From IMG/VR virus record IMGVR_UViG_3300009285_001934, positions 1 through 33,430 of that record: a stretch of 33,430 nucleotides of DNA. One strand, given 5' to 3'. Below are positions 2,539 to 32,184 of the stretch, in pieces. The notes below the pieces were generated by a model. That model was given only the letters and a program-made list of their open reading frames with translations. It searched no databases and was not told the DNA's origin. The position numbers were made by a program, and so were the translations under genes. This DNA comes from a virus. How positions within the stretch are numbered: position 1 is the first letter of the stretch; each line of letters starts with the position of its first letter.

Positions 2539-2667
2539 ATGGATCAACCGACAAACGAAAAAAGATACTGGACACCGCGCACATACCTAGTGTTACGCAA
2601 TGGGAAGCAGATTGGTGCGTGGACGACCACTATCCTTGATCCCAAGATTCGACTCATTTACGCATAA
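2539..2667 (+). CDS. Small protein, unknown, coupled to pseB
   Basis: A 42-residue frame whose TAA shares one base with the ATG of the next gene (TAATG). The sequence MDQPTNEKRYW...YLVLRNGKQIGAW...LDPKIRLIYA looks like a short antiparallel beta protein with many aromatic and basic residues. There is no clear Shine-Dalgarno immediately upstream; an AGGTGAGAG lies about 20 bases before the ATG. The one-base stop/start junction is the main reason to believe it. Function unknown. It could instead be only a leader frame that delivers ribosomes to pseB. Confidence 0.45.
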   Translation: MDQPTNEKRYWTPRTYLVLRNGKQIGAWTTTILDPKIRLIYA

Positions 2668-3515
2668 TGCTCAACACAAAGACTAGGCCGCTTGTTGTTG
2701 CAATAACGGGAGGGACTGGGAGCTTGGGGAATGCTCTAACGAAACACCTCCTGTCGCTTCCAACCATCGGAAGGATTCGCATCATCTCCCGTGATGAGTT
2801 CAAGCAGTCCACGATGGCAGAGACGTTCACGGACAATCGTATGCGGTTCTTCGTTGGGGACGTTCGCGACGAAGATCGTATGATCGATGCACTCAGTGGG
2901 GCCGATGTTGTGGTCCACGCCGCAGCCATGAAACAGGTACCGGCGTGTGAGTACAACCCGTGGGAAGCCGTCAAGACGAACATCATGGGGACGCAAAGCG
3001 TCATTTCTGCCTGTATCAAGAACGGCGTGAAGAAGGCGGTATTTGTTTCAACAGACAAGGCGGTTGATCCGGTAAATCACTACGGAACGACCAAGAAGGT
3101 CGCCGAGAACCTCTGGCTCTATGCGGACTACACCAAGACGAACTTCGCCATCTCGCGCTGGGGGAACATCCTGTACTCACGAGGATCAGTCATCCCCATC
3201 TTCCAAGAGCAAGCGAAAACCGGAACACTGACAATCACCCACACTGATATGACGCGGTTCCTCCTCACGCTCGAGGAAGCGACGAAGTACCTCTGGGCGT
3301 GCATTGAGAAGATGAACGGTGGGGAAACTTTCATCCCATCGTGGCTCAAGAGCGCCAGAATACTCGACATCGCTCGGGCTATCGCGCCAGAAGCAACTAT
3401 CAAGGTCATCGGTGTTCGGAAGGGTGAGAAGATACACGAAACACTCGGAGACGGGTATCACTCCAACGACCCCAAGAGACTCCTGACATTTGAGGAAGTA
3501 AAGGCGCTTCTATGA
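2667..3515 (+). CDS. pseB: PseB-like UDP-GlcNAc 4,6-dehydratase (inverting)
   Basis: A 282-residue extended short-chain dehydrogenase of the FlaA1/PseB/CapD type. The Rossmann glycine motif is ITGGTGSLGNAL (13-24), an acidic GDVRDEDRM follows at 64-72, AAAMKQVPACEYNP (85-98) is the PseB/CapD signature, STDKA at 128-132 supplies the Asp-Lys pair, and the catalytic YxxxK is Y139-K143. GVRKGEKIHE near the C-terminus is the family's substrate-binding end motif. It converts UDP-GlcNAc to the 4-keto-6-deoxy-AltNAc sugar, the first step of pseudaminic acid synthesis. Length is somewhat below the usual ~330. It overlaps the next gene by 4 bases. Confidence 0.88.
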   Translation: MLNTKTRPLVVAITGGTGSLGNALTKHLLSLPTIGRIRIISRDEFKQSTMAETFTDNRMRFFVGDVRDEDRMIDALSGADVVVHAAAMKQVPACEYNPWEAVKTNIMGTQSVISACIKNGVKKAVFVSTDKAVDPVNHYGTTKKVAENLWLYADYTKTNFAISRWGNILYSRGSVIPIFQEQAKTGTLTITHTDMTRFLLTLEEATKYLWACIEKMNGGETFIPSWLKSARILDIARAIAPEATIKVIGVRKGEKIHETLGDGYHSNDPKRLLTFEEVKALL

Positions 3516-4105
3516 ACCCACACGAGGTTACCAAACAGTTCGAGAAAGCCGTTGCTGAATACACCGGCGCACCGTACGCCATTGCCACGACATCCTGCAC
3601 GATGGCGCTGCTCCTCGCCTGCGCCTACCACAAGGTCATCAAGGTCACTATTCCAAAGCGAACCTACATCTCGGTCCCCATGAGTATTATTCACGCCGGA
3701 GGCAAGGTCAGATTTGATGATCGGGAGTGGAAAGGAACCTACCAGCTCAAGCCCTACCCCATCTGGGACTCCGCCCGCTGGTTCTCATCAGGAATGTACC
3801 AAATGCCTGGTCAGATGATGTGCGTCTCGTTCCACTGGTCAAAGACGCTTGGCATAGGACAGGGTGGTGCTATACTTCATGATGATCCCAGGGCAGATAT
3901 TTGGCTCAAGAAAGCCAGATTTGATGGCAGGACAGAGGGCATTGAACCAAAGGACGATGAGTTCCCATTCCTCGGCTGGCACGCCTACATGAGTCCCCGC
4001 GATGCCGCCGAAGGACTCTCGCGCCTCGCCCTGCTTCCAAAGGACAACGACCCAATTCCCAATGATCCATATCCTGATTTGAGTACTATCAAGATATTCC
4101 AATGA
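3512..4105 (+). CDS. DegT/DnrJ/EryC1-type PLP aminotransferase, short (PseC-like)
   Basis: A 197-residue protein that matches the N-terminal large domain of sugar aminotransferases. The opening FEKAVAEYTGAPYAIATTSCTMAL gives the fold's cofactor-binding start, PIWDSARWF holds the PLP-contacting Asp, and SFHWSKTLGIGQGGAIL contains the Schiff-base Lys. The WHAYMSPRDAAEGLSRLALL segment matches the usual end of the large domain (NYRMSDIQAALGLSQL-like). It stops there, so the C-terminal small domain of about 150 residues is missing. By position it would be PseC, which aminates the PseB product using glutamate. Whether the short form is active alone is unknown. It overlaps both neighbours by 4 bases. 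Confidence 0.82.
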   Translation: MNPHEVTKQFEKAVAEYTGAPYAIATTSCTMALLLACAYHKVIKVTIPKRTYISVPMSIIHAGGKVRFDDREWKGTYQLKPYPIWDSARWFSSGMYQMPGQMMCVSFHWSKTLGIGQGGAILHDDPRADIWLKKARFDGRTEGIEPKDDEFPFLGWHAYMSPRDAAEGLSRLALLPKDNDPIPNDPYPDLSTIKIFQ

Positions 4106-4797
4106 GAACATTCCTCATCGCTGAGGTCGGCTCGAACCACGAAGGTTCGCTCAAACGCGCCCTCGAACTGATTGAGATAGCAAAAGACTCCGGCGCAGAT
4201 GCCGTGAAGTTCCAGCTCATCCCCCCATTCAAGCCCGACTGGATAGATAAGATTATCGAATACTGCAAAGACGACATTGAGTTCATGGCTTCCCCATTCA
4301 ATGAAGCAGGTGTCAACGCACTCCGAGGCAGGATCAAGCACTGGAAAATAGCCTCTACCGAAGCCGCCAATCCCGAGTTCGTGAAACTGGTACTCAAGGC
4401 CGCCAAGTTCGATACTGTATTCATCTCTGACGGCGCAACCGAGAATCCAAACAAGATCGTCGCTCTCGGCCCCAATGTTGTTCCTATGTCCTGCGTCGTG
4501 AGGTACCCAGCAGAAGTCTGGGATTACTCCTTCCAGTACCACGGACGCTGGGGACTCTCTGACCACACAGAGGGAAACCTGTACCTCCCAACCGTCGCTG
4601 TCGCAGCCGGAGCAGTCGCAGTAGAAAAGCACTTTACCGACGACCCAAAGAGAGATGGTCCCGATCATGCCTACGCCCTCACCCCAGTCCAGCTTACTGA
4701 AATGGTCCAATCTATCAGAATGACCGAGGCGCTATTCACGAATCCCAAAACAACCATCACTGACCACGTTGGCAGAACACTCCAATGGCCAACATAA
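4102..4797 (+). CDS. NeuB/PseI-like nonulosonic acid synthase without SAF domain
   Basis: A 231-residue TIM-barrel of the NeuB family. It opens FLIAEVGSNHEGSL (4-17), followed by SGADAVKFQ, FMASPFNEAG, KIASTEAANP, ISDGATENP, YPAEVWD and GLSDHTEGN, and AVAAGAVAVEKHFTDD near 171-186. These are the phosphoenolpyruvate and sugar-binding blocks of sialic/pseudaminic acid synthases. The reaction condenses a 6-carbon amino sugar with PEP. The C-terminal antifreeze-like (SAF) domain that normally completes a ~340-residue enzyme is absent. The gene overlaps the upstream aminotransferase by 4 bases and the GNAT gene by 13. Assignment to PseI rather than NeuB or LegI rests on the neighbours. Confidence 0.87.
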   Translation: MRTFLIAEVGSNHEGSLKRALELIEIAKDSGADAVKFQLIPPFKPDWIDKIIEYCKDDIEFMASPFNEAGVNALRGRIKHWKIASTEAANPEFVKLVLKAAKFDTVFISDGATENPNKIVALGPNVVPMSCVVRYPAEVWDYSFQYHGRWGLSDHTEGNLYLPTVAVAAGAVAVEKHFTDDPKRDGPDHAYALTPVQLTEMVQSIRMTEALFTNPKTTITDHVGRTLQWPT

Positions 4798-5195
4798 CTT
4801 TACGCAAAGTCGCGCCAGAGGATTTCCCATTCTTCTACGAACTGCTCGAAGACAAAACCCCCGAACAGAACATCTCCCATACTGCAATGCCCTCCTGGGA
4901 AGACCATGTAGACTTCAACACCGCCAATCCCTACGCAGAAGACTACGTACTCCTCAACGAGGATCATGTACGGGTAGGAAGAATCTACCTCACCCACAAG
5001 AACGAAATCGGCATCCACGTTCACTCTCGGTATCAAGGGAAGCACTACGGCACTGCGGCGCTGGTCACCCTCCTCGTAAAGCACAAAGACGAAGAACTCT
5101 ACGCCAACATCTCGCCCAAGAATGTTAGATCACAAGCCTTCTTTGAGAAGATGGGCTTTACCCTCCACCAGATGACGTACAAACTCGAACCATAA
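4785..5195 (+). CDS. GNAT acetyltransferase (PseH-like)
   Basis: A 136-residue GNAT-fold protein. It begins ITLRKVAPEDFPFFYELLED, the usual first strand and helix. The acetyl-CoA pyrophosphate loop is RYQGKHYGTAAL (82-93), a close match to the family Q/RxxGxG/A pattern, and it ends NVRSQAFFEKMGF (113-125), the classic GNAT motif B. In the pseudaminic pathway PseH acetylates the 4-amino group; this gene's place directly after the synthase fits that role, though GNAT specificity cannot be read from sequence. The start at 4785 lies inside the end of the synthase gene. It shares its last base with the next gene's ATG. Confidence 0.8.
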   Translation: MANITLRKVAPEDFPFFYELLEDKTPEQNISHTAMPSWEDHVDFNTANPYAEDYVLLNEDHVRVGRIYLTHKNEIGIHVHSRYQGKHYGTAALVTLLVKHKDEELYANISPKNVRSQAFFEKMGFTLHQMTYKLEP

Positions 5196-5593
5196 TGGGT
5201 CAAACAGGTAGACCGACAGTTATCACAGAGGAGACTGTCAGGAAACTTGAGAGTGCCTTCAAGATCGGCGCTAATGACTCAGAGGCCTGTCATTTCGCTA
5301 ACATTAGCCGAGAAACATACTATCGGCATCTCAAAGAGGATAAAGTCTTTAATGACAACATGACTCTAGCGAAAGAATGGCCAATCCTCGCTATGAAACG
5401 AACTATTGTTCAAGCAGCTGTAGATGGCGATAAGCAGTCTGCACAGTGGTACCTCGAGAGAAAGCGTAAGGACGAGTTCGCCCCACGGCAGGAACTCACT
5501 GGACCTGAGGGTATGCCGCTAGGGTATGTTCATTCGGGGGACATGAAGAAGCTCGACGAGGGTGTTGTAGAAACAGAACAACTACCCGAATGA
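5195..5593 (+). CDS. terS: Small terminase subunit-like DNA-binding protein
   Basis: A 132-residue protein. GRPTVITEETVRKLESAFKIGA, then EACHFANISRETYYRHLKED, make the helix-turn-helix typical of phage small terminase subunits (GRPTKLT...AGIS..TYY.W). A helical FNDNMTLAKEWPILAMKRTI block follows, and DGDKQSAQWYLERKRKDEFAPRQELTGPEG is the usual C-terminal region of this group. The small subunit recognises packaging sites and feeds DNA to the large subunit. Its position is unusual: it is inserted in the sugar operon and lies 3.2 kb upstream of terL, overlapping the GNAT gene by 1 base and the methylase by 4. A non-packaging regulator is a less likely alternative. Confidence 0.75.
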   Translation: MGQTGRPTVITEETVRKLESAFKIGANDSEACHFANISRETYYRHLKEDKVFNDNMTLAKEWPILAMKRTIVQAAVDGDKQSAQWYLERKRKDEFAPRQELTGPEGMPLGYVHSGDMKKLDEGVVETEQLPE

Positions 5594-6138
5594 ACCAACT
5601 CGAACGCTGGCAGGGGAGGTTCGGTGACGACTACAGCAAGCGGAACGACTACGATCCAAAACTACGACTCGAAGCGTTCAAGGCGCTCATCCCCAATGGT
5701 GTACGGTCAGTTCTTGAAGTAGGGTGCAACATCGGGAACAACCTGGAAACCATCAGCGCACTTGGTATACCCACTGTGGTAGGTATAGAACCCAATGTGA
5801 AAGCCGCTCGTATTGGCAAAGAACGAGGAAGAACCATCATCATCGGTGAAGCGTTAAATCTACCTATTGAGGGTTCAACCTACGACCTGGTGTTCACCGC
5901 CGGAGTCCTCATGCACATCCCAGACTACCGTGATGCGATGCGAGAGATATGGCGCGTGACACGGAAATACGCCCTCGCCATTGAATATATGGGCGACGGT
6001 GAATCAATCACCTACCACGGCAACGACGATATGCTGTGGAGGCGGAAGGGCTACGTGTACCCAGGAGAACTCATTGGGGCTGGTAAACTTGGTGAGGAGT
6101 TCGACCACTGCGGCTATCAGCTCTACAAGAAACAATGA
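5590..6138 (+). CDS. SAM-dependent methyltransferase, pseudaminic-acid-associated type
   Basis: A 182-residue class I methyltransferase. The opening ERWQGRFGDDYSKRN closely resembles the pseudaminic acid biosynthesis-associated methylase family (TIGR03587-like). The SAM glycine motif is VLEVGCNIGNN, acidic motif II is VVGIEPN, motif III is LVFTAGVLMHIPD, and the EIWRVTRKYALAIEYMGDG block follows. The C-terminus YRG-like stretch GNDDMLWRRKGYVYPGEL also fits. The family is found beside Pse genes in other bacteria, with a presumed sugar or pathway substrate that has not been fixed. Its presence strengthens the pathway call. ATGA overlaps on both sides couple it to terS and the cytidylyltransferase. 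Confidence 0.83.
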   Translation: MNQLERWQGRFGDDYSKRNDYDPKLRLEAFKALIPNGVRSVLEVGCNIGNNLETISALGIPTVVGIEPNVKAARIGKERGRTIIIGEALNLPIEGSTYDLVFTAGVLMHIPDYRDAMREIWRVTRKYALAIEYMGDGESITYHGNDDMLWRRKGYVYPGELIGAGKLGEEFDHCGYQLYKKQ

Positions 6139-8183: not shown

Positions 8184-8789
8184 ATGCAGACAGCCATGCT
8201 CGGCTCTAGGTTGGTCGAGGTGCCTCACTTCAACACAGGCAGAATCCCCTGGAATAAGGATCGAGCATGGTCTGATAAAGAAAAGGAACGGATCTCCTCT
8301 GGTAGAAAGGGCAAAGCGCTGGGAAATAAAAACGCTCTTGGACATAGTCACCCACTCTCGCAGGAAGCAAAAGACAAACTGAGTAGAGAGCGGAAGGGGA
8401 AGAAACGACCACCATTCAGCAGAGAGTGGCGTGAGAAAATCTCAAGGGCGGCGACGGGTCGTAAATACCCAGAATCATTCTGTGAGAAATCAAGAATCAA
8501 CAGACTGGGTCCTAGAAACCCAATGTGGAAAGGTGGTATCTACCCAGCAAATAGGGCTGCAAGAAAGACCGCCGAGTACAAGAGATGGCGTAGGGCAGTC
8601 TTCGAGAGGGATAACTATACCTGCATAGCCTGTTCCGTTCGCGGAGGCACCTTACACGCGGATCACATCAAGCGGTTCGCAGAACATGAAGACCTACGCT
8701 ATGAGGTATCAAACGGGAGAACCATGTGTGTCGGTTGTCACAGGAAAACAGACACTTGGGGAACAAAGACCAAATACATCAAAGAATGA
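8184..8789 (+). CDS. HNH homing endonuclease with NUMOD3 repeats
   Basis: A 201-residue free-standing homing endonuclease. Residues 30-100 carry repeated NUMOD3-type DNA-binding motifs (SxExKxKxSxxxKGKK; SREWREKISRAATGRK). Residues 132-195 form the HNH domain: YKRWRRAVFERDNYTCIAC (C147, C150), LHADHIKRF with the catalytic H158-D160-H161 group, N177 in VSNGRT, and CVGCH (C182, C185, H186). It directly abuts the preceding small gene and its TGA overlaps the terL ATG, so it is well adapted to the operon. Such genes typically cut a nearby unoccupied allele, here probably terL or its flank; the target is inference. Confidence 0.93.
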   Translation: MQTAMLGSRLVEVPHFNTGRIPWNKDRAWSDKEKERISSGRKGKALGNKNALGHSHPLSQEAKDKLSRERKGKKRPPFSREWREKISRAATGRKYPESFCEKSRINRLGPRNPMWKGGIYPANRAARKTAEYKRWRRAVFERDNYTCIACSVRGGTLHADHIKRFAEHEDLRYEVSNGRTMCVGCHRKTDTWGTKTKYIKE

Positions 8790-10183
8790 AAACGGCAACA
8801 GTCAACGGGAATCTAGTAGAAATCGTCCCCTTCGATGCACGCCCTCATCAGCGAGAACTCGACAGTCTCATATGGGGTCGGGCGTCGACCAAGCAGGGTC
8901 CGCAGTTCCTTGTCCCCGTTGATCATAGACGTTCCGGCAAGTCCACCGCACTTTTCAATAGCCTCGTAAAGGTCTGCGCCTCACCGGATAAGGCGGTCGT
9001 GGGTCAGTACATGTACCTCTATCCACAGCAGAAGAAGATACGCGAGCATATCTGGGACAACCCAGAAATCCTGACGAAGTTCCTGCCTACCTCACAGGTG
9101 AGCAAGAAGGACGACCAGCGCATGGTGTTGTACTTCCGTAGTGGCAGTCAGCTCATCTTCGACGGGACCGATGAGAACCCAGACAAGCACCGTGGAGGCA
9201 ATGGACGGGGGTATGCAATCGATGAGTATGACGACCAGCAGTCGCGCATATTCACCGAGATTGTCCGACCAATCGTCGAGGCAAATAAAGGGTTCGTCGT
9301 ACTGTCTGGTACACCGCGCGGAGTCAAACATCTTCACGATGCGTATCTTGCGGGACAAGACGAGACTCGCGAGATGTGGTGGTCACGCCTGCTACCAGCA
9401 ACAGTCTCAACGAATGACGACGGGACGCGCCTGTTCACGGATGAGCAGCTTGCCGAGATTGAGCGAGACTACATCACAGACGGTATCGGTGCAGCGTTCG
9501 CGCAGGAATACCTCTGCTCATTCAATCAGGATGCGAGTCAGGTGTTCAGGAACATTGACAAGGTATGCACGGAGAAACCCCAAGAGGCAGTACCAGGACA
9601 CAGCTACCGAATCGGCAGCGATCCGGCACTCACCACAGACTACTGGGCGAACTCGGTACTTGACCTCAATACGTTCCAGGAAGTAGCGCTCGAGCGTTTC
9701 CAGCCGCACTCCACCGCATTGGGTGAAGCACGGACGGAAGCGTTAGTACGCAGGTACAACAACGCCGAACTGCTCATTGACTCATCAGGACTCGGGCTAC
9801 CCATTGCCGACCACCTCCGAGACAGGGGTATAGGTGTTATCCCACTCCCCACCGGAGCGAACAAGGAACGGCTCATCACGAACCTCTCGATTGCCGTCGA
9901 TGCTGCCACGGCTCACTTCACAGACGACTCGGTGGGCAAGGAAGAAATGCGCGAGTACTCATTCAACCGGACACCAATGGGTCGTTACCAGTTCTCAGCC
10001 CCAGAGGGTAGGCACGATGATACAGTCATCGCACGCGCCCTCGCGGTCTGGGAGTTGGGAGCGCCCATGCCACTTCCTGAGCAGGGTGGCATAGTGCAAG
10101 ACCTCCGCAACTCATACTACGGAGAGAAAGCCAGACCAACCAACACATTCTACGGACAGAACCATAAACCACGCGGAGCATGA
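8786..10183 (+). CDS. terL: Terminase large subunit
   Basis: A 465-residue packaging ATPase-nuclease. The ATG at 8786 overlaps the HNH stop (ATGA), which makes it a better start than the in-frame ATG at 8726 inside that gene. ATPase: a deviant Walker A DHRRSGKS (46-53), Walker B YAIDE (143-147), and motif III SGTPRG (174-179). The RNase H-like nuclease has Asp at GSDPA (D279), LIDSSG (D332) and HDD (D411/D412). It translocates DNA into the prohead through the portal and cuts the concatemer. The basic HRR before the P-loop Gly is typical of this podovirus-like branch. It is coupled to the portal gene by ATGA. Confidence 0.95.
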   Translation: MKTATVNGNLVEIVPFDARPHQRELDSLIWGRASTKQGPQFLVPVDHRRSGKSTALFNSLVKVCASPDKAVVGQYMYLYPQQKKIREHIWDNPEILTKFLPTSQVSKKDDQRMVLYFRSGSQLIFDGTDENPDKHRGGNGRGYAIDEYDDQQSRIFTEIVRPIVEANKGFVVLSGTPRGVKHLHDAYLAGQDETREMWWSRLLPATVSTNDDGTRLFTDEQLAEIERDYITDGIGAAFAQEYLCSFNQDASQVFRNIDKVCTEKPQEAVPGHSYRIGSDPALTTDYWANSVLDLNTFQEVALERFQPHSTALGEARTEALVRRYNNAELLIDSSGLGLPIADHLRDRGIGVIPLPTGANKERLITNLSIAVDAATAHFTDDSVGKEEMREYSFNRTPMGRYQFSAPEGRHDDTVIARALAVWELGAPMPLPEQGGIVQDLRNSYYGEKARPTNTFYGQNHKPRGA

Positions 10184-12147
10184 AAGACGAAAAAGAGACA
10201 CCCGCATACGTCGCCTCACAAAAGGAGCAAGACGACATTGAGGACGCAATGCGCTTTAGAAAGGAATCATACGAACAGACGCGCACAGAGCGTCAGTCGT
10301 GGCACAACGCATATTTACGATACAAGCTCTCGCGATCACTTTCCGAATACGACTACATCCCAGATGTCCCCGTTGCGCTGACGTACGACTCCGTTGAGCG
10401 CATAGCGACATCACTCCCAGGTAAGGAGTTCCACTTCCGCGCCAAGCCGACTGGTGATGAGGACATGATCAACGCCCTGAAGTTCACGGAAGTCCTGAAC
10501 CACGTATGGACGAGTCCCGACATCATGGACGGACCATCAAAGCTTGAGAACATCAAGAAGCAGATGGCGCTGTTCGGGACTGCCTTTGCGCAGGTGTACT
10601 GGGAAACGAAGATCGACGAGGATGGGAACGTCATCAAGTCTGATCCGGCACTCTGGCCCCTCAACATCTTCGATGTGTACTACAACAAGTTCGTACCAGA
10701 GGTTGAAGACCTTCCCGAAATCGGCTACCAGTCCATCATCTCGCTCTCATGGTTGAAGCGGAACGGGAAGGATTTGGGCTACAAGAACATCAAGTACGTC
10801 AAAGGATTCAGCCCCAAGACAAAGAGCGATGATGAGGACTCATCCTCTATCGACTCCGAGGAAACAACGAGTGGGAAGCAGAAGAAGGTGAACGACCTGG
10901 CAAAGATATTCGAGATACAAAGCGACGATCGGGTTGTGACTATTGCTCTCGACGACGCTGGTCCTGTGTGGCTTCGCAACTCAAAGAACAAGATCGGTCG
11001 CAAGAATGTGGCAATCTTCCGTCTCAAGCGCCACCCACTCCCCAACCGGCTTCTCGGTATTACTGACGTATCACGTGGGGGTCAGATTGAGGACGCAATC
11101 CAGCGTCAGTTGAACCAAGCAACATTCAACACGCTCCTCGTTGATAACCCGAACTTTACCTACGACCGGACAGACCGGAACATCGACCCACGGACGTTCA
11201 TCACGGCACCTGGAGCTGGTATCCCCCGTGGACGGGACGCAAACTCTATCACCCCAATCCAGTTCAACTCGCACCTCGAACAGTCTCTGACGATGATCAA
11301 TGCGCTCATGGAGCGCTACAAGCGTGTCGTGAACACCCCTGACGTTATGCAGGGTATTGGGGATCGCAATGTAGACACCGCTACGGCGACAAACATCCTC
11401 GATGCGAACTCAAAGGCGAGTACTGAGAAGATCGTTGATGGGATGCGCTCGAGTATCATGAGGATCGGACTCATCGTCAAAGCCCTGTACAAGGAGTACG
11501 GCGATGACTCACTGACCATCACCGTACGGACACCGGAACTCCTGGAAGCGCTTGGCGCTGGTAGTGTTGATTCAGCAGAAGTCATGGTCAACACCGCCGA
11601 GACGTTCAACATGGACCGCGACATCGACATCGACGTTGACTTCACGGTACAAAACAAGGCAATCCTCTCGCGCCGTATCGTTGAGTGGATGACACTCACC
11701 GCAAAGGACCAGAGCATCCCGCCCTCGTTGCGTCTCAAGTCCTACCAGAAGTGGCTGGAGTACAACGACCTCGACGACCTGGCGATGGAGTTCCAAGAAC
11801 AGTCAAACTCGATACAGACCTCCGACTTGGGGCAGGCCGATCAGGAAAACCAAGAGATGGCCAATGGTTCTGCACTTCCACCGACCCCGAACGCCACGCC
11901 AGCCCACACCCAGCGCCACATCGAGTTCATGCGCCGCGCAGACACGGGCCCTGACATCGACCGCGTACTCCGAGCGCACATCGAGGGAGAAATAATGCAG
12001 GCGCAGGGTCAACAGCAACAGCCCATGCAGCCAGGACAACCTATGCAGCAAGGACCAATGCAACAGGGTCAGCCCCAGGGTCCAATGTCGCAGGGGAGTG
12101 ATGCTCCGCTTGCCGAACAATCCACCATTGGTATGCCAATGCTATGA
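10180..12147 (+). CDS. Portal protein
   Basis: A 655-residue protein directly after terL, in the canonical portal position. It has portal-like features: an N-terminal helical region (RKESYEQTRTERQSWHNAYLRYK), YDSVERIATSLPG, an ENIKKQMALFGTAFAQVYWE core helix, and the DVSRGGQIEDAIQRQLNQATFN block followed by RYKRVVNTPDVMQGIGDRNVDTATATNIL, which matches the stem/wing region of podovirus-type portals. The last ~55 residues are Gln/Pro/Gly/Met-rich low-complexity sequence, probably a disordered tail. The dodecameric portal is the DNA channel and the docking site for terminase and connectors. It overlaps the next gene by 4 bases. Confidence 0.9.
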   Translation: MKDEKETPAYVASQKEQDDIEDAMRFRKESYEQTRTERQSWHNAYLRYKLSRSLSEYDYIPDVPVALTYDSVERIATSLPGKEFHFRAKPTGDEDMINALKFTEVLNHVWTSPDIMDGPSKLENIKKQMALFGTAFAQVYWETKIDEDGNVIKSDPALWPLNIFDVYYNKFVPEVEDLPEIGYQSIISLSWLKRNGKDLGYKNIKYVKGFSPKTKSDDEDSSSIDSEETTSGKQKKVNDLAKIFEIQSDDRVVTIALDDAGPVWLRNSKNKIGRKNVAIFRLKRHPLPNRLLGITDVSRGGQIEDAIQRQLNQATFNTLLVDNPNFTYDRTDRNIDPRTFITAPGAGIPRGRDANSITPIQFNSHLEQSLTMINALMERYKRVVNTPDVMQGIGDRNVDTATATNILDANSKASTEKIVDGMRSSIMRIGLIVKALYKEYGDDSLTITVRTPELLEALGAGSVDSAEVMVNTAETFNMDRDIDIDVDFTVQNKAILSRRIVEWMTLTAKDQSIPPSLRLKSYQKWLEYNDLDDLAMEFQEQSNSIQTSDLGQADQENQEMANGSALPPTPNATPAHTQRHIEFMRRADTGPDIDRVLRAHIEGEIMQAQGQQQQPMQPGQPMQQGPMQQGQPQGPMSQGSDAPLAEQSTIGMPML

Positions 12148-14042: not shown

Positions 14043-14938
14043 ATTACTCAAAAGTCTTTCTCGAGAAGTCACGTCTCCTGATCCGTCACGATGCCTTCGC
14101 CCAAAAGCGCGGCGTCCCAGCGAACCAGGGCAAGGTCGTGAACTTCACCCGCCATGTCGCACCAGCAGTTGCTACAACTGGTCTTACCGAGTCCGTTACG
14201 CCTACGGCGATCAACGTCTCAGGTCAGACCGTTGCAGTGACACTGGTCGAGTACGGTGCCTACGCGCAGATCTCGAAGTTCTACGAGCGAACGTCTATCG
14301 ACGTTGGACTCAAGGAACAGGTCGAGGCGATGGGCGTCAATATGGGAGAAAGTATCGATACGATCATTCGGAACGCACTGGTGACGGGTGGTGGAGTTGG
14401 TCAGTACACTGACGATTCTACCTCCTACACTTCTGTGGCTTCGACGGTCGATGCTTCAGACTTCCGAGTAGCGGTCCGAACACTCAAGAAGAACAAGGCT
14501 ATCCCGTTCCAGGGTACCCAGGGCAATCCTGTCTTTGGCGCTCTCATTGGACCGGAAGTAGCTTACGACCTCTTGGGCGATTCGACCTGGCAGGCCACGC
14601 AGCAGTACGTGAACCCAGACCCGATGAAACGGGGAATCTTGGGAACGTTCTTCGGTGTTGAGTTCGTTGAGACAAACAACAACTACAAGCCGAACAGCTC
14701 TGGTTCTGGCGGGTACGTCACGTGGATCTTCGGCAAGGAAGCATACGGCGTTGTCTCGATTGATTCTGAGGATGTTACCACTCCTGGTGCGGCACAGCTC
14801 GTCATGAAGGACTCTGGTCCGAATGACACCGGCAACCCACTCTCGATGTGGTCAACACTCGGTTGGTACGCTCCGTTCAACGCGATCGTACTCAACTCCG
14901 ACTGGATCGTCGAGCTATACGCTAAGGCGTCTTCCTAA
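14043..14938 (+). CDS. Major capsid protein (N4-gp56 type), exon 2
   Basis: Main part of the capsid gene. Joined to exon 1 it gives 312 residues. The order of blocks fits the N4-gp56 family: YYSKVFLEKSRLLIRHDAFA, then KRGVPANQGKVVNFTRH (the N-arm), ATTGLTESVTPT, VTLVEYGAYAQISKFYERT, EAMGVNMGESIDTIIRNAL and TGGG, then a long HK97-fold body ending WIVELYAK. The intron interrupts the N-terminal arm just before the conserved YYSK. Reading from the first in-frame start inside this exon (GTG, 14138) would lose the N-arm. It is followed by a complex RNA fold and a GroES-like gene. Confidence 0.92.
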
Positions 14939-14944
14939 GAAGAA

Positions 14945-15002
14945 CCTCGGTTTGTGGGGTGTCTAGCAGACGCAAAACACCCCACACCGTCTGCAACCGA
15001 GG
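14945..15002 (+). promoter_or_regulatory. Nested/pseudoknot-like RNA fold in the capsid 3' UTR
   Basis: An outer 8-bp stem CCTCGGTT (14945-14952) / AACCGAGG (14995-15002) encloses two overlapping stems: A, GTGGGGTGT (14954-14962) / ACACCCCAC (14977-14985), 9 bp; and B, GCAGACG (14966-14972) / CGTCTGC (14988-14994), 7 bp. Each is perfect. The 5' arm of B lies in the loop of A. Connecting loops are 3, 4 and 2 bases, tight for both stems at once, so the fold is either a compact pseudoknot or a two-state switch. No T-run follows. Possible roles are 3'-end protection of capsid mRNA or control of the next gene. Confidence 0.65.
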
Positions 15003-30187: not shown

Positions 30188-30400
30188 ATGCAACGATGGA
30201 AGATCGACGAAGATTGGATGCTCATTCTTTTCTCGGTCGGGGTTCTCATCGCGGTAGGGTATGTGGTACGGTGTATTTGGCAGTTCTTCTACGTCTCAAC
30301 AGATATGCCGTGGGAGCTTGCGTTTATAATGACTCTGGGGACAATAGGCGTGATACTGGTCCTCTATAACGTCATAGTCGTATTTACAAAACACCGATGA
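30188..30400 (+). CDS. Two-helix membrane protein, putative holin
   Basis: A 70-residue protein with two transmembrane helices, about residues 10-33 (WMLILFSVGVLIAVGYVV and on) and 43-66 (LAFIMTLGTIGVILVLYNVIVV), joined by a short loop with a basic C-terminus (FTKHR). The size, topology and position between the XhlA-like protein and the endolysin fit a class II holin, which would release the endolysin through the inner membrane. It overlaps the endolysin gene by 4 bases (ATGA). Confidence 0.7.
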   Translation: MQRWKIDEDWMLILFSVGVLIAVGYVVRCIWQFFYVSTDMPWELAFIMTLGTIGVILVLYNVIVVFTKHR

Positions 30401-30996
30401 GATTCCCACTTGATCAACGAATCCTCACGAGAGGCGCGGCCGCACACGTCGCCGCGGGCCTTGGGGCGGCTTGTGATTATAGAGCCGATCACGTTCCATT
30501 CTTCGCACCCTGTGAAGGGACGGTGTATCACTTTGGGGATCCAACAAACGGTGGTGGGTATTGGATGGGGTTTAGGCGTGGGGATGGAGTGAAACTCGAA
30601 CTCGCCCACCTCTCGCGCCGGGACGTTCCCAATGGCGCAACCGTCCGTGAGGGTCAGCACTGTGGTATCACCGGAAACACCGGCACGATCACCTCTGGTC
30701 CACATCTTCATCTACAAATCATCGAACCAAACGGACACCGTATTGACCCTGAATTACTAAACTGGACAACACTCACCCCAACCCAAATGGCAATCCAACA
30801 GGTCGTCGACGCACAGAAGAAAACCCTGAAGAATGTTCAGGATGGTATAGTCGCAGGAGCAGTAGACGCTTCCACAGGTAAAGCGTACATCATCAAGAAC
30901 AGCAAGAAGATTGAGAAACCGATCATTGAAGTTCTCGCCTCACTGTACGTCCCGTATGTGAAGCAAGAGACGCTCAATGACATCCCAAACGGTTAG
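30397..30996 (+). CDS. M23-family peptidase (endolysin)
   Basis: A 199-residue LytM/M23-type protein. The core runs AACDYRADHVPFFAPCEGTV (24-43), GGGYWMGF, LELAHLSRRDVPNGATVREG (68-87), CGITGNTGTITSGPHLHLQI (89-108). D27, H71, H103 and H105 match known catalytic or zinc-binding positions. The family's first His, four residues before the Asp, is Gly here (G23), so zinc binding must differ, perhaps through H17. Residues 125-199 are an extra helical region with no recognised wall-binding motif. No signal peptide is seen, so export depends on the holin. Start and stop couple it to the neighbours. Confidence 0.82.
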   Translation: MRFPLDQRILTRGAAAHVAAGLGAACDYRADHVPFFAPCEGTVYHFGDPTNGGGYWMGFRRGDGVKLELAHLSRRDVPNGATVREGQHCGITGNTGTITSGPHLHLQIIEPNGHRIDPELLNWTTLTPTQMAIQQVVDAQKKTLKNVQDGIVAGAVDASTGKAYIIKNSKKIEKPIIEVLASLYVPYVKQETLNDIPNG

Positions 30997-31007
30997 GGGG
31001 TGATACT

Positions 31008-31211
31008 ATGAAAGACAAGATTCTCGACATCCTCGGCTCGATCCGTTTCTACATTGTCACCTTCGCGTGGCTTGCTGACTACCTCGGACTGGTAGCAGAT
31101 TCAGGGTTCGATATCGTCGTCCTCCTCAATCAGCTCGGACTGTGGCTCGGTTCCGTGGTCGTGATCGGTTCTGCTGATAGCGTCGCAACCAAGTTCTCCG
31201 GCAAGAAGTAA
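31008..31211 (+). CDS. Small membrane protein, second holin-like
   Basis: A 67-residue protein preceded by the strong ribosome site GGGGGTGAT. Two hydrophobic stretches, about residues 12-27 (IRFYIVTFAWLADYLGLV) and 35-55 (IVVLLNQLGLWLGSVVVIG), suggest one or two membrane helices. The basic end KFSGKK is holin-like. It closes the lysis cassette, 11 bases before a terminator. A holin or antiholin role is inferred. Confidence 0.65.
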   Translation: MKDKILDILGSIRFYIVTFAWLADYLGLVADSGFDIVVLLNQLGLWLGSVVVIGSADSVATKFSGKK

Positions 31212-31221
31212 GTCAGAAAAG

Positions 31222-31250
31222 GGCGGTCCAGTCGAAACCGGGCCGCCTTT
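31222..31250 (+). terminator. Intrinsic terminator of the late operon
   Basis: GGCGGTCC (31222-31229) pairs with GGGCCGCC (31240-31247), 8 bp with one G-T wobble, 10-base loop, followed by TTT. AAAA precedes the stem, so it could also work from the other strand. It lies just after the last lysis gene. Confidence 0.75.
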
Positions 31251-31798
31251 GCGTGTTGCTGACCGTCCTTGTTCAAGACAGTGATCTGTATGGGGACGGG
31301 TAGCGTCAACACACACCCCATTCGTACACCCTCTGATTCTTTTTTTCAATATAAATACTCCCCGGAGTCCTTCTTCATGAACTCCACCGGAGCGCGAATC
31401 TCCCAAGAAGCCGTCTTGGTACTCCGACGACCTATATCCGATGTCTCTCGGAGGTCGTTGTGCTTCCCTCTCCTTGCTTACCTGATCAGGGGCAAGGGTT
31501 CGTTCCTGAACGGGGAAGCCAGTAGGCATACCGTCCAAGACACCGCTCCACCGTTTGCGCGACCCTCGTTCCTTCGCCGGAGGGTAGGCGACCCGTATGA
31601 AGTCCACACATTTGACTGGCATCCAACCGGTGGCTGTTGTGGTTCGCCGCACCGATCCGGTCGGTAATAAGTACAAGCCCCGGGGCATTCTGGTTCCCGG
31701 GGCGTTGCATGAAAAGCGGCCCAGAATGCACTCACACGCTATCATGGGGGCAGAAAGCCGTCAAGTGCCTACCCCAAAAGATATCCACAGGGTGGGGC
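31251..31798. other. Intergenic region without convincing genes
   Basis: About 550 bases between the late terminator and promoter P2. Frames on both strands exist but lack ribosome sites and family resemblance. The content is: hairpin CCGTCC (31263-31268) / GGACGG; hairpin ATGGGG (31290-31295) / CCCCAT (31316-31321); a T-run TTTTTTT (31340-31346) followed by an AT-rich TATAAATA; then the folded block at 31403-31729 annotated separately; then a GC-rich run-up to P2. It may hold an origin, a packaging signal or genome ends, but no iterons or long direct repeats are visible. Confidence 0.6.
31403..31729 (+). ncRNA. Candidate structured noncoding RNA
   Basis: A run of strong stems. CCAAGA/TCTTGG (31403-31419), competing with GTCTTGG (31413-31419) / CCAAGAC (31535-31541). 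A long hairpin at 31425-31460: an 8-bp outer stem (ACGACC 31427-31432 / GGTCGT 31453-31458 plus two further pairs) stacked on TCCGA/TCGGA. A three-way junction closed by GCTTCCC (31462-31468) / GGGAAGC (31513-31519), with arms CCTTGC/GCAAGG and GTTC/GAAC. GCCAGT (31518-31523) / ACTGGC (31615-31620) and CATAC (31527-31531) / GTATG (31595-31599) enclose ACCCTC (31562-31567) / GAGGGT (31580-31585). Last comes the H-type pseudoknot at 31677-31729. The strand is inferred from the pseudoknot loop lengths. No known RNA family is recognised, no promoter is certain, and the real ends are unknown. Confidence 0.4.
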
Positions 31799-31827
31799 TT
31801 GCAACGTATACAGGGGTGTGCTAGTGT
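31799..31827 (+). promoter_or_regulatory. Sigma70-like promoter P2 of the next early operon
   Basis: TTGCAA (31799-31804), a 17-base spacer, then TAGTGT (31822-31827) in the extended context TGCTAGTG, identical over eight bases to the extended -10 at 2324. The expected start is near 31834. The first gene follows at 31858 with AAGGGGAA as its ribosome site. Confidence 0.65.
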
Positions 31828-31833
31828 GTATAC
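31806..31833 (+). promoter_or_regulatory. Paired GTATAC palindromes flanking the -10 (candidate operator)
   Basis: GTATAC at 31806-31811 and again at 31828-31833, centre to centre 22 bp, about two helical turns on the same DNA face. One copy lies in the promoter spacer, the other at the expected transcription start. This is the layout expected for a dimeric repressor that blocks P2. The repressor gene is not identified in the window. Confidence 0.45.
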
Positions 31834-31857
31834 AACATCCGTAAGGGGAACACGACC

Positions 31858-32184
31858 ATGACCGATCTAATCGAAACGCCGAAACTCATCAACGTCCTCG
31901 AAGAATGGAAAATGGAACTCCACTCTATCGCCGACGAAGTAGTAGCAAGAGATAACGCGGAACTGTCCGTACGGATTCGCGAACTCGCCGGAGAGATTGC
32001 GATACACGCCAGCGCCATGCGCACCGACCTCCGCGCGTTTGAGAAGGCAGTCGCCGACGAAGCATCACAGACAACGTGCGCTGAGTGCGGACGGATCGAC
32101 CCAGACGACTCACGCATCCGTTCAGGAATGAAGTGTGGAGCGTGCGCGTACGAAGTATCAGGCGCTCGAACCGTAGAAGCATGA
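31858..32184 (+). CDS. Helical protein with C-terminal zinc ribbon
   Basis: A 108-residue protein, first gene after P2. Residues 1-70 are helical (LINVLEEWKMELHSIADEVVARDNAELSVRIRELAGEIAIHASAM). The C-terminus has CAECG...CGACAYE, four Cys in two CxxC-type pairs about 20 residues apart (C74/C77 and C92/C95), a likely zinc ribbon. Function unknown; early phage proteins of this type often bind nucleic acid or host transcription factors. The next gene starts in its stop codon (ATGA). Confidence 0.7.
   Translation: MTDLIETPKLINVLEEWKMELHSIADEVVARDNAELSVRIRELAGEIAIHASAMRTDLRAFEKAVADEASQTTCAECGRIDPDDSRIRSGMKCGACAYEVSGARTVEA

Follow-up and report, generated by a model that had tools for sequence, protein, structure and literature searches.

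An interlocked pair of stems in the longest gene-free gap of an uncultured phage genome, and a pseudoknot behind its capsid gene

The gene-free gap and its setting

The window analyzed here is a virus record of 33,430 bases from an uncultured tailed phage. Its terminase gene (8726 to 10183), its M23 peptidase gene (30397 to 30996) and further genes match PHROG or Pfam models, and its capsid gene (approximately 14045 to 14938) shares ∼32% identity with relatives in the genus Pagevirus, whose members infect Bacillus. All genes named in the window lie on the + strand. The window starts inside an RtcB-like RNA ligase gene (1 to 608), and genes for sugar metabolism (Polysacc_synt_2, NeuB) and a methyltransferase gene lie ahead of the terminase gene, at 2667 to 6138. 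A tRNA search of the window returned none.

The longest geneless stretch (Table 1) constitutes the gene-free 2% of the window, although the list of gaps depends on a gene list that stems partly from our own choice of frames. The gap is flanked by lysis genes, the nearest of which may encode a holin, and by a row of small genes that are probably early genes; both labels were assigned from position and size. The first + strand gene past the interlocked element described below (31858 to 32184) starts ∼130 nt on and encodes a 108-amino-acid protein with no PHROG match and no family match.

The gap showed no coding signal. With a codon score trained on 35 genes of the window, the six gap frames scored from -0.05 to -0.22, compared to -0.05 to 0.54 for the genes themselves (34 of 35 positive). 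A frame of 75 amino acids running across the element (31597 to 31824) looked protein-like by eye, but its score of -0.07 fell below that of every one of the 35 genes (lowest, -0.05), and no convincing relative of it was found. A long minus-strand frame (31745 to 31101) was rejected as a gene on the same score (-0.07), and a scan of three gap frames against PHROG gave no match.

Searches for relatives of the gap by DNA similarity among phage records, with a single stem pattern in IMG/VR, in 11 records reached via relatives of the terminase and capsid, by nhmmer against the loci gathered, and behind relatives of the holin gave nothing convincing; scanning species genomes for the capsid and the holin also yielded no relative. 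Coding DNA lies behind the holin-like gene in two records (L004 and L010), and the record pieces examined for a third (L032) contained no holin-like match.

Table 1. Positions of the features discussed (window coordinates unless another record is named)
Feature	Positions	Strand	Remark
Gene-free gap	31212-31857		646 nt; longest geneless stretch of the window; holds the interlocked element 31677-31729
Stem 1, first arm GCCCCGGG	31677-31684	read on +	exact letters
Stem 1, second arm CCCGGGGC	31696-31703	read on +	exact letters
Stem 2, first arm GCATTCTGG	31685-31693	read on +	occupies the loop of stem 1
Stem 2, second arm CCAGAATGC	31721-31729	read on +	exact letters
Promoter-like site TTGACG-17-TAGCGT	31736-31764	-	TG ahead of the -10; consensus match only; expected start ∼31730
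Early promoter-like site TTGCAA-17-TAGTGT	31799-31827	+	TG ahead of the -10
Terminator-like hairpin	31219-31250		behind the holin-like gene; then TTTGCG-type on +, CTTTTC on -
Proposed leftward noncoding RNA	31216-31730	-	∼510 nt; inferred from promoter-like and terminator-like sites
Post-capsid pseudoknot, window	14945-15002	+	directly behind the major capsid gene
Post-capsid pseudoknot, L014	from 10548
Post-capsid pseudoknot, L004	from 15167
Post-capsid pseudoknot, L016	10936-10978
Post-capsid pseudoknot, L032	10912-10954
Post-capsid pseudoknot, L017	6836-6875
Post-capsid pseudoknot, L018	6722-6758
Post-capsid pseudoknot, L035	6147-6184
Post-capsid pseudoknot, L038	6787-6826
Post-capsid pseudoknot, L041	3727-3765

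Two interlocking stems in the gap

A preliminary description had reported an H-type pseudoknot in the gap. Both of its stems are present letter for letter (Table 1), and the 5' arm of stem 2 fills the loop of stem 1 as described. The pairing, then, is that of an H-type pseudoknot, with perfect Watson-Crick stems of 8 and 9 bp that interlock. With every pair closed, the loops are 0, 2, and 17 nt on the + strand and 17, 2, and 0 nt on the minus strand, the asymmetry that had been pointed out. The word "classic" was nevertheless too strong, since stem 2 (S2) has 9 bp and the first loop (L1) is only 0 or 1 nt. A loop of 1 nt might fail to cross a 9-bp stem 2, according to a passage of PMC11262651; two pairs may therefore have to open. 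The same paper defines common pseudoknot motif 1 (CPK1) by an S2 of 6 to 7 bp, an L1 of 1 to 2 nt, and zero nucleotides between the stems, and the element, with its S2 of 9 bp, L1 of 0, and 2 nt between the stems on the + strand, falls outside this definition. Nor does it resemble a -1 frameshift element, as reading upstream revealed no slippery heptamer and the region carries no coding signal. No Rfam family, GOLLD and ROOL included, reached its gathering score in the window, and 31150 to 31900 gave only subthreshold, chance-like matches on either strand.

To place the element among H-type pairs in general, we scanned for Watson-Crick stems of at least 6 bp with L1 of 0 to 6, L2 of 0 to 6, and L3 of 0 to 30 nt. 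These limits were chosen with the element already in view, and the shuffle figures that follow are thus guides rather than clean P values. The element was the strongest of four + strand H-type pairs in the window (stacking sum, -39.4 kcal/mol). Dinucleotide shuffling of the whole window produced a pair as strong in 4 of 1,200 trials (3 of 1,200 with L3 of at least 3), whereas shuffling of the 646-nt gap did so in 0 of 5,000 trials when L3 had to be 3 nt or longer and in 3 of 20,000 trials with any L3. Seven gene-free gaps of at least 90 nt exist in the window, two of which contain a strong pair (31677 to 31729 and 14953 to 14994); when all seven were shuffled, two gaps reached -37.39 in 0 of 20,000 trials. 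These results bear on the possibility that two functionless inverted repeats interlock by chance. The whole-window frequency means that scanning several hundred windows would be expected to yield one such pair, and the lack of any relative is compatible with this account; however, the element sits in the 2% of the window without genes, where shuffles seldom match it. We consider a chance origin unlikely.

Nested folding of the element's neighborhood was unremarkable (z = -0.80), and for the 53-mer a rough pseudoknot energy of -27.5 was only slightly better than that of the nested fold (-24.6). Neither 9-bp arm recurs elsewhere in the window. We also considered avoidance of CCCGGG, of which the window holds three copies, two inside the element; 11.4 copies are expected from single-base composition, but the Markov expectation is 1.5 and the effect disappears.

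A pseudoknot immediately after the capsid gene

In the scan described above, the + strand pair that ranks second in strength (14953 to 14994) follows the capsid gene immediately and is enclosed by an outer stem (14945 to 14952 with 14995 to 15002). We took the stretch from the capsid stop to the next gene from 31 records, three of which (L034, L023, and L029) were too short, leaving 28 for testing. The best H-type pair was reached by at most 1 of 1,000 shuffles in 11 of the 28 (10 distinct, since L018 equals L019): the window, L014, L015, L016, L032, L017, L018, L019, L035, L038, and L041. Two more records (L024 and L028) reached 0 of 1,000, but their pair consists of a single long hairpin and a short stem of A-T pairs, and they were excluded from the count. 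L049 was matched by 12 of 1,000 shuffles, and 14 of the 28 lacked such a pair.

Two trios of records could be aligned. In the trio L017, L018, and L038, rows chosen by hand with L041 left out as unaligned by MAFFT, all 68 of 68 cells were paired and five pairs had changed on both sides (one in the outer stem, two in S1, and two in S2), compared to 1.9 double changes on shuffling and 0 when the pairing was slid by 1 to 3 columns. In the trio of the window, L014, and L004, with arms placed by hand, 72 of 72 pairs were standard and both sides had changed at two outer stem, three S1, and three S2 positions. These compensatory changes support every helix of the predicted pseudoknot in both trios. 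Wobble pairs are G-U on the mRNA strand and A-C on the other, indicating that the structure belongs to the mRNA. Across the two trios, L3 is 0 to 5 nt and S1 is 9 to 10 bp.

At the same place, phages Pascal, API480, and Dennebes have plain hairpins. The post-capsid pseudoknot had no Rfam match, and we recognized no description of it in the passages of the literature that our searches returned. In a survey of bacterial RNA candidates published in 2010, the presence of such a structured domain in a 3' UTR is described as "highly unusual in bacteria" (PMC2864571). The post-capsid pseudoknot is better supported than the element at 31677 to 31729 and matters more: it is a directly testable RNA element, retained among phages whose capsids are ∼30% identical even though its letters differ. 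As a separate observation, five records of another branch (L037, at 10874 to 10975, and at the same place L036, L040, L042, and L046) have a ∼100-nt spacer after the capsid gene in which inverted-repeat letters recur. By eye, a loop in this spacer (TGGCGA or like) matches a stretch near its 3' end; the spacer has no Rfam match.

Strand, candidate transcripts, and known systems

The two promoter-like sites near the element diverge. The minus-strand site emerged from a general promoter scan, and its expected start falls where the element ends; the early site on the + strand sits 3' of the element. The form TTG-17-TGnTAGnG, fixed only after the sites were seen, has three copies in the window (2304 and 31799 on the + strand, 31764 on the minus strand), compared to a mean of 0.22 in shuffles, of which 0 of 200 held three. 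Because ∼15 promoter-like sites scoring at least 10 are spread over the window, the promoter evidence is support, not proof. A scan with stricter limits returned no promoter-like site and a single terminator-like site (minus strand only), with 1.2 expected. The + strand site at 2304 is followed ∼60 to 100 nt on by a hairpin (2395 to 2428) and the T-run TTTTCTTT; the stretch 2304 to 2437 may encode a short RNA (∼100 nt) or represent a leader subject to attenuation. Pairing of this candidate (2339 to 2437) with the gap was no better than in shuffles.

The same divergence bears on a reading of the element as DNA. The overlapping inverted repeats, together with the palindrome GCCCCGGGGC and the recurrence of CCCGGGGC 17 bp on, could form a protein site at an early/late switch or mark a replication origin. 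Both promoter-like sites lie within ∼70 to 120 bp, the gap also contains an A+T-rich stretch near 31335 to 31356, and the arms are unique in the window, yet repeated origin-type sites were not found in the gap and a DNA site has no need of interlocking stems. A DNA element is, in our estimate, about as improbable as chance.

The preliminary description had assigned the element to + strand RNA, a role that gained no independent support here. The promoter scans gave no + strand promoter-like site in the part of the gap upstream of the element, a terminator-like hairpin precedes it, and the minus-strand promoter-like site points the opposite way. A + strand pseudoknot, serving as an exonuclease block or a protein site, would depend on late transcripts reading through that hairpin or on an unrecognized promoter in the gap, and its L1 is too short for 9 bp unless pairs open. 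The genes are oriented along the + strand, however, the pseudoknot energy estimate is slightly better than that of the nested fold, and loops of 0 (or 1), 2, and 17 nt suit an H-type fold better on this strand; we regard the + strand RNA as somewhat unlikely. The further contention that the reversed loops are unfavorable is weaker than it first seems: the post-capsid pseudoknot has a near-zero L3 on its transcribed strand, with an S1 as long as 9 to 10 bp, so loop geometry does not settle the case against the minus strand.

Folding leaves the strands undistinguished. Folds of 611 nt gave z = -1.93 on the + strand and -1.45 on the minus strand, which is therefore not favored over this length; the minus-strand fold of 31216 to 31730 gave z = -1.99 (3 of 100 shuffles equally good). 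Sliding windows reached z = -2.8 on both strands within 31320 to 31559 and -4.1 on the + strand at 31200 to 31349, against a lowest value of -4.4 among 60 coding controls. The terminator-like hairpin is stronger on the + strand (-20.2 versus -16.5) and could stop transcripts from either side. Read on the minus strand, the GCCCCGGG/CCCGGGGC hairpin gains five pairs, including a G-U that is A-C on the + strand.

Over the + strand RNA, the DNA element, and chance, we tentatively favor a leftward reading, in which the element would be the 5' end of a noncoding RNA transcribed from the minus strand (Table 1). Transcription would start at the minus-strand promoter-like site, divergent to the early one, and end at the hairpin behind the holin-like gene. 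The GC-rich hairpin, extended by its five pairs beyond a bulged C, would carry a loop of 11 nt, and 9 of these match the extreme 5' end of the RNA. Through this pairing the 5' end would become part of the folded structure, which, we infer, would protect the RNA from decay and set its shape. Against the leftward reading, L3 is 0, and not every one of the 17 pairs can be expected to coexist in a coaxial H-type knot. If the element is real as RNA, it would mark a noncoding RNA gene or a control element with a putative regulatory role at the early/late boundary of an uncultured phage group.

One other locus offers a hint. L062, found by a 37% holin match, has interlocked stems of 8 and 9 bp at 14594 to 14649, in 110 nt between two genes; a gene of L062 looks RecA-like by eye. 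Its loops are 1, 4, and 17 nt on its minus strand; on the gene strand the 17-nt loop comes first, as in the window element on the minus strand. The two elements are alike in size and unlike in letters. This match, the one element of like size, fits the leftward reading, yet a single pair that strong in both strands of 63 loci totaling 740,815 bases is unsurprising by itself against the shuffle percentiles and may be due to chance. The broader proposal, a leftward RNA of ∼0.5 kb and of an undescribed class with a knotted 5' end, its second stem following the first with almost no loop as in the post-capsid pseudoknot and the L062 element, is more doubtful than any reading above. Were it true, phages would share a structural class of RNA that recurs and is held by shape, not sequence.

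Among known systems, the operator of T4-type gene 32 is likewise an H-type pseudoknot in untranslated phage sequence; according to PMC3014915, it lies 67 nt ahead of the point where gene 32 starts and binds gp32. The window element differs in lying farther from the next start, ahead of a gene with no match to a single-strand-binding protein or any other PHROG family, and its transcription is putative. GOLLD and ROOL are described in PMC12286853 as large phage noncoding RNAs with pseudoknots. The proposed leftward RNA would be of the same general kind, but the candidate is ∼510 nt long, matches no Rfam family on either strand, and comes from a window without tRNA. The post-capsid pseudoknot differs from the element in having an outer stem, in its L1 of mostly 2 to 4 nt, and in its place between two late genes, with no sequence likeness seen; the element, elsewhere in the genome, with no outer stem by reading and an L1 of 0 nt on the + strand or 17 nt on the minus strand, is not a member. 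The two nevertheless share a genome, a hairpin loop that pairs with an adjacent stretch and, if the element is read on the minus strand, an L3 near 0.
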